Source: Rhodovarius crocodyli
GTDB lineage: Bacteria > Pseudomonadota > Alphaproteobacteria > Acetobacterales > Acetobacteraceae
Length of the DNA stretch: 64,000 nucleotides
Reading direction: 5' to 3'
Assembly (NCBI RefSeq): GCF_004005855.1
Contig: NZ_SACL01000002.1
Span: 248,001 to 312,000, forward strand
Shown: positions 25,113-26,209 of the stretch, in pieces
Position numbering within the stretch: the stretch's first letter is position 1
How the letters are laid out: each line of letters begins with the position of its first letter
The notes under the pieces: model-generated
What the model was told of the DNA's origin: nothing
What the model saw: only the letters and a program-made list of their open reading frames with translations
Database searches by the model: none
Program-made: the position numbers and the translations under genes

Positions 25113-25595
25113 ATGTCCGCTTCCAAGCTGCTGACGGCCCTCGCCGCCGCCTCCCTGCTCGTCGCCTGCTCCTCCGACCCCGAGACCGCCGCGACCGGCG
25201 GCGGCGGCGCCGGTGGCCCGACGGCTTCGAGCATCCGTCCGGGCAGCCAGGAAGACCTGCGCGCCAATGTCGGTGACCGCATCTTCTTCGAGACCGACCG
25301 CAGCACCGTCGCCGCCGACCAGCGCCCCGTGCTGGAGCGCCAGGCCCGCTGGCTGGCCCAGTACTCCTCCGTGCAGGTGACCATGGAAGGCCATGCCGAC
25401 GAGCGCGGCACGCGTGAGTACAACCTGGCCCTCGGCCAGCGCCGCGCCAACAGCGCGCGTGACGTGCTGGTGGCCTCTGGCGTCGCTTCCACCCGCATCC
25501 AGGTGATCAGCTACGGCAAGGATCGTCCGGAAGCCCTGGGTTCCGACGAAGGCTCCTGGGCCCAGAACCGCCGCGCCGTGACGGTGGTCCGCTAA
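25113..25595 (+). CDS. pal: Peptidoglycan-associated lipoprotein Pal
   Basis: An outer-membrane lipoprotein of 160 residues. The lipobox is SLLVAC with Cys19, followed by a Gly-rich linker and an OmpA-type domain with FFETDRSTV, MEGHADERGTREYNLALGQRRA and the C-terminal NRRAVTVV; these residues bind diaminopimelate in the wall. Pal links the outer membrane to the wall during division as part of Tol-Pal. The tolQRAB genes usually found upstream are absent; cfa is there instead. cpoB follows after one base. Confidence 0.95.
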   Translation: MSASKLLTALAAASLLVACSSDPETAATGGGGAGGPTASSIRPGSQEDLRANVGDRIFFETDRSTVAADQRPVLERQARWLAQYSSVQVTMEGHADERGTREYNLALGQRRANSARDVLVASGVASTRIQVISYGKDRPEALGSDEGSWAQNRRAVTVVR

Positions 25596-25596
25596 G

Positions 25597-26209
25597 ATGC
25601 TGCTGCGCGTTTCCGCCCTAGCACTGGCGGCGTCGCTGGCGCTGTCACCCGTCGCCCAGGCTCAGGTGGATTCGCGCGAAGGCATCTACCTCCAGAACCA
25701 GCTCCTGCAGCTTCGGCAGGAGCTGGAACAGATGCGTGCCCGGGGCGGTTCGTCCCTGGGCGCTGCCCCCCCCCCCCGCCCCCCCGGCGGCCGCGCCGCC
25801 GGCCGCCGAGGCGCCCGCCGCCCGCCCGCCCGCGCGCGCGCTTGCCGATGGGCAGGCCGCGCTCGGCCGTCGCGACTATGCCGCCGCCGAGGCCGCGGCC
25901 CGTGAGGTCATCGGCAACCGCGCCGCCGCTTCTTCCACCGTGAATGCGCAGATGCTGCTGGGCGATGCCCTGATCGGCAAGCGGGACTTCGGCAACGCGG
26001 CCATCGCCTATAACGAGGCCTATACCCGCGGCCGCGCCACCCCGCGCGGGCCGGAGGCCCTGGTCGGCCTGGCCAATGCCTTCCAGCAGCTGGGCCACCG
26101 GCGCGAGGCCTGCGACACGCTGAACGACCTGCGCAGCAACCACCCCAACATCCCCGGGCCCCTGCAGGAGCGTGCGAACGCCGTGCGCGGCCGGGCCCAA
26201 TGCCGGTAA
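25597..26209 (+). pseudogene. cpoB: cpoB/ybgF, frameshifted in a 12-C homopolymer
   Basis: CpoB coordinates wall synthesis with Tol-Pal. The first frame gives a signal peptide (MLLRVSALALAASLALSPVAQA) and the coiled-coil trimer segment (LQNQLLQLRQELEQMRARGG), then hits C12 at 25766-25777 and becomes Arg-rich nonsense ending at 25905. The TPR half (ADGQAALGRRDYAAAEAA ... YTRGRATPRGPEAL) continues in the +1 frame to 26209. Removing one C, or adding two, joins them into one normal CpoB with a Pro/Ala linker. This may be a sequencing error, a phase-variable switch or a real mutation. The start is 1 nt after the pal stop. Confidence 0.85.

Follow-up and report, generated by a model that had tools for sequence, protein, structure and literature searches.

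CpoB is known from Escherichia coli as a periplasmic trimer made up of a trimeric coiled coil and a TPR domain. It binds both TolA and PBP1B, adjusts the cross-linking of peptidoglycan at the septum, and can be lost in that species without the typical tol-pal defects (PMC4458516; PMC7391070). Judged by homology, the CpoB of Rhodovarius crocodyli would have the same role. Homopolymeric tracts within genes act as on/off switches in Neisseria and others (PMC5084427; PMC2831843), while two-colour Illumina chemistry yields poly-G read ends when signal is lost over many cycles (PMC13218037). Here, we describe a cpoB gene of R. crocodyli that is interrupted at a run of C; it lies in a window of 64,000 nucleotides, by which we mean the whole stretch of DNA analysed. 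The reading that we prefer, with a probability of roughly 0.75, is that of an assembly artefact: the gene itself would be an intact, ordinary tol-pal cpoB, the middle of which was lost in assembly.

Layout of the interrupted cpoB gene

The gene begins with an ATG at 25597 directly after the pal stop, which is the placement of CpoB/YbgF directly downstream of pal, but it occupies two frames that meet at a C tract instead of a single open reading frame. The first-pass annotation had reported this meeting of frames together with a run of C12 at 25766-25777, a G at 25778, and C7 at 25779-25785, and all of these were confirmed in the sequence. The N-terminal frame extends from ATG 25597 to 25905 (102 aa) and encodes a signal peptide and a short coiled coil, while the TPR frame extends from GTG 25736 to 26209 (157 aa) and is +1 relative to the frame of ATG 25597. 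The sister genome used below is that of Rhodovarius lipocyclicus CCUG 44693 (G002), the closest relative compared. The features are as follows:

25116..25595, + strand: pal, the intact upstream neighbour (OmpA domain, 6.1e-18), collinear with contig 77 of the sister.
25597..25764, + strand: N-terminal part of cpoB, with the signal peptide and the first short coiled coil (86% identity to the sister over 56 aa).
25765..25834, + strand: the C12-G-C7 tract and the remaining Pro/Ala linker, forming the junction (here the sequence lacks the relatives' trimerisation coiled coil and shifts frame by +1).
25835..26209, + strand: TPR part of cpoB in the +1 frame, to the stop (TIGR02795 tol_pal_ybgF, 7.2e-15; TPR families; 93% identity to the sister).

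The remaining linker at 25765..25834 has a G+C content of about 93%. C runs as such are not over-represented in the window, where six C8 words were observed against 12.3 expected from shuffles, and no special DNA fold was found at the tract, its stability being no greater than that of shuffles (z 0.15). The C-terminal TPR domain is of the YbgF type; its TIGR02795 score of 55.6 bits is below the curated cut-off of 90.1, and that of an intact relative is likewise low (55.0). A sequence search of solved structures with an intact relative returned weak matches to unrelated coiled coils only.

When compared to the sister, both parts of the gene gave a dN/dS of 0.14, within the range of the neighbouring genes (0.12-0.35), and thus showed no sign of decay, a result that a very recent break would also give. 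Coding indels relative to the sister in the aligned blocks nearby were mostly multiples of three, near gene ends, or intergenic. Among the neighbouring genes inspected, a coarse comparison by eye of gaps with the table of open reading frames revealed a clear frame break in cpoB only.

The missing trimerisation coiled coil

In intact relatives, CpoB consists of a signal peptide, a short coiled coil (..REGIxLQNQxLQLRQE..), linker 1, a second coiled coil (approximately LLxRVxxLEEEVRRxRGRxDExxxxNRxLxxDxxKLxxDMEFRLQQLEG), linker 2, and the TPR domain, in that order, with both linkers composed of extremely C-rich Pro/Ala codons. The second coiled coil corresponds to Pfam TolA_bind_tri (PF16331), the CpoB trimerisation domain, which was matched in the sister at 4.7e-7 and in the genus mate G005 at 1.2e-6, just below the curated cut-off, while a profile search of the window returned no PF16331 match. 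The size of the gap was measured with two anchors, one within the first coiled coil and the other where the TPR domain begins. The window has 175 nt (58.3 codons) between them, as against 127-277 codons (median 144) in 54 distinct relatives with an intact gene. The shortfall is thus no less than 69 codons and typically about 86, corresponds to the coiled coil and its flanks, and lies exactly at the C tract. The coiled coil is present in all 54 of these relatives, and the longest C or G run between the anchors is 7 throughout. Elsewhere in the assembly, a search for the missing coiled coil gave only two short, weak matches, and a search for a second cpoB copy gave none.

Read from the sequence as given, the C tract is a deletion junction at which the frame changes as well, and so more than a slip of a single base. 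The first-pass annotation had called the N-terminus normal, a description that does not hold given the missing trimerisation domain and flanks. It had also proposed that eleven or fourteen C would restore one frame; these lengths do join the two frames, but since the second coiled coil is missing, joining them at any tract length would not give a normal CpoB. By the same measure, a fixed 11-C tract, which had been put forward as proof of an assembly error, would still not show a normal gene.

Contig ends and homopolymer runs in the assemblies

In the sister, pal, the N-terminus of cpoB, and the entire second coiled coil lie on contig 77, which stops within linker 2, while contig 78 (NZ_JAAABL010000078.1) begins in linker 2 and continues with the TPR part. 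Thus, cpoB is present in the sister and its assembly fails in linker 2; its cpoB linkers contain no long C tract. A query with an intact CpoB against 120 genomes of the family matched 114, of which 12 (G002, G015, G017, G035, G039, G043, G055, G056, G057, G075, G104, and G113) have contigs that end at or on the edge of linker 2, against 1.7 expected from contig numbers and genome sizes for a 300-base target. The corresponding Poisson P of about 2e-7 is a guide only, since the 300-base target was picked after the data had been seen and the set probably includes several metagenome bins. Restricting the count to genomes with at most 200 contigs gave five such ends against 0.41 expected. A metagenome contig of the family (L044) ends near the cpoB linker and carries G17 and G8 runs at around 90-125. 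The CpoB match lies in two pieces or frames inside one contig in G095 (L172), G061 (L173), and G100 (L174), where frame errors in the linker are possible too.

The assembly that holds the window contains 108 C10 words, compared to 16, 7, and 3 in three genus mates, and most of them stem from three runs, namely C67, C22, and G31. Contig C1 opens with the C67 run (G000:C1:1-67, L100), which directly adjoins the end of a VOC-family-like gene and looks like the product of poly-G read tails. At the G31 run (G000:C46:241523-241553; L107 1024-1054), the flanks are collinear with the sister (90% and 86% identical), which has about 237 bases between them, where R. crocodyli has little beyond the G run. 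Both a poly-C contig start and a homopolymer in place of sequence are effects to be expected of poly-G tails on reads that lost signal. The two flanks of the C22 run (C11:1228125) match different sister contigs. This run is at the edge of a repeat (L103, about 926-1136) that lies between genes, spans about 200 bases, and occurs in many partial copies in the R. lipocyclicus genome; the repeat matches in both orientations and is therefore probably palindromic. The long C and G runs of this assembly are mostly outside genes, so they show the type of fault and not further broken genes.

Explanations for the break and comparison with known systems

We favour an artefact because the domain missing here is present in intact relatives, because the contigs of relatives, including the sister, break at the same place, because the same assembly holds the C67 contig start, the C22 run, and a G31 run in place of sister sequence, and because both halves of cpoB are under the same constraint as their neighbours. 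Short reads would fail or lose signal in the C-rich Pro/Ala linkers, and the assembler would have joined linker 1 to linker 2 through the C run, with the loss of about 210-260 bases and of the reading frame. We infer that this join is false, and reads that lost signal and ended in poly-G (poly-C on the other strand) are its probable cause; the CpoB made by the cell would then most likely be normal and trimeric and serve to tune wall synthesis at the septum. The first-pass annotation had named a base-calling error as the simplest alternative, and an artefact is indeed what we favour, although in the form of a collapsed or misjoined assembly lacking about 250 bases and not of a miscounted homopolymer. 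Against an artefact stand the absence of the coiled coil from the rest of the assembly, although a fragment of that size could have been filtered out, the shortness of C12 and C7 for a poly-G tail, the continuity of the contig through the site, and the position of the other long runs, mostly outside genes.

The main alternative, although an unlikely one, is a real loss, in which the two C-rich Pro/Ala linkers recombined or slipped against each other, so that the trimerisation coiled coil was deleted and a recent out-of-frame pseudogene remained, perhaps a leaky one in which +1 frameshifting on CCC-C or RNA polymerase slippage gives a little TPR protein without trimers. Both breakpoints are in C-rich linkers, as expected of a deletion between short repeats, and the coiled coil has left no trace in the rest of the assembly. 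E. coli tolerates the loss of cpoB (PMC4458516), and other species sometimes lack the gene (PMC7391070). However, neither half shows decay (dN/dS 0.14), none of the 54 intact relatives lacks the coiled coil, and the site coincides with an assembly hot spot in an assembly that has other suspicious runs. A real break would mean that the trimerisation domain of CpoB has been lost naturally here, which would put the importance of trimer formation to the test. It is very doubtful that, beyond a true loss of the coiled coil, slippage in the C tract yields a small, variable amount of monomeric TPR-only CpoB, in which case the control of wall synthesis would be uncoupled from trimer disassembly by TolA.

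The idea of a phase-variable locus, raised in the first-pass annotation, in which changes in C tract length would switch CpoB on and off, is much less probable still. The gene resembles homopolymeric contingency loci in having a long C tract, C12, inside the coding sequence at a frame junction, but it differs from them in that the tract is not conserved (comparison with related genomes, as the annotation had suggested, found no run above 7 in the 54 relatives and none of such length in the sister) and in that no tract length brings back the trimerisation domain or a functional protein; moreover, C8 runs in the window are no commoner than chance. A plain one-base miscount in an otherwise correct gene is scarcely credible. 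Removing one C does join the frames, and short-read platforms are already prone to errors at homopolymers of 8 (PMC11140927), but such a miscount does not account for the absence of the coiled coil.

The contig data indicate that cpoB is repeatedly split or collapsed at its Pro/Ala linkers in assemblies of the Acetobacteraceae, and apparent cpoB pseudogenes, short variants, or homopolymer switches in this family are not credible without long reads. When compared to the poly-G tails and misjoins of two-colour Illumina data, the likeness lies in the C67 contig start, the G31 run replacing sequence, and the cpoB C run replacing about 250 bases, while the cpoB run differs in being short and interrupted by a G, and the link to this platform is presumed for R. 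crocodyli. When compared to CpoB/YbgF of the tol-pal operon, the window sequence differs in its broken frame and in lacking the trimerisation coiled coil, whereas the intact relatives are complete, and it shares with that system the position after pal, the signal peptide, a coiled coil, and a TPR domain related to TIGR02795.
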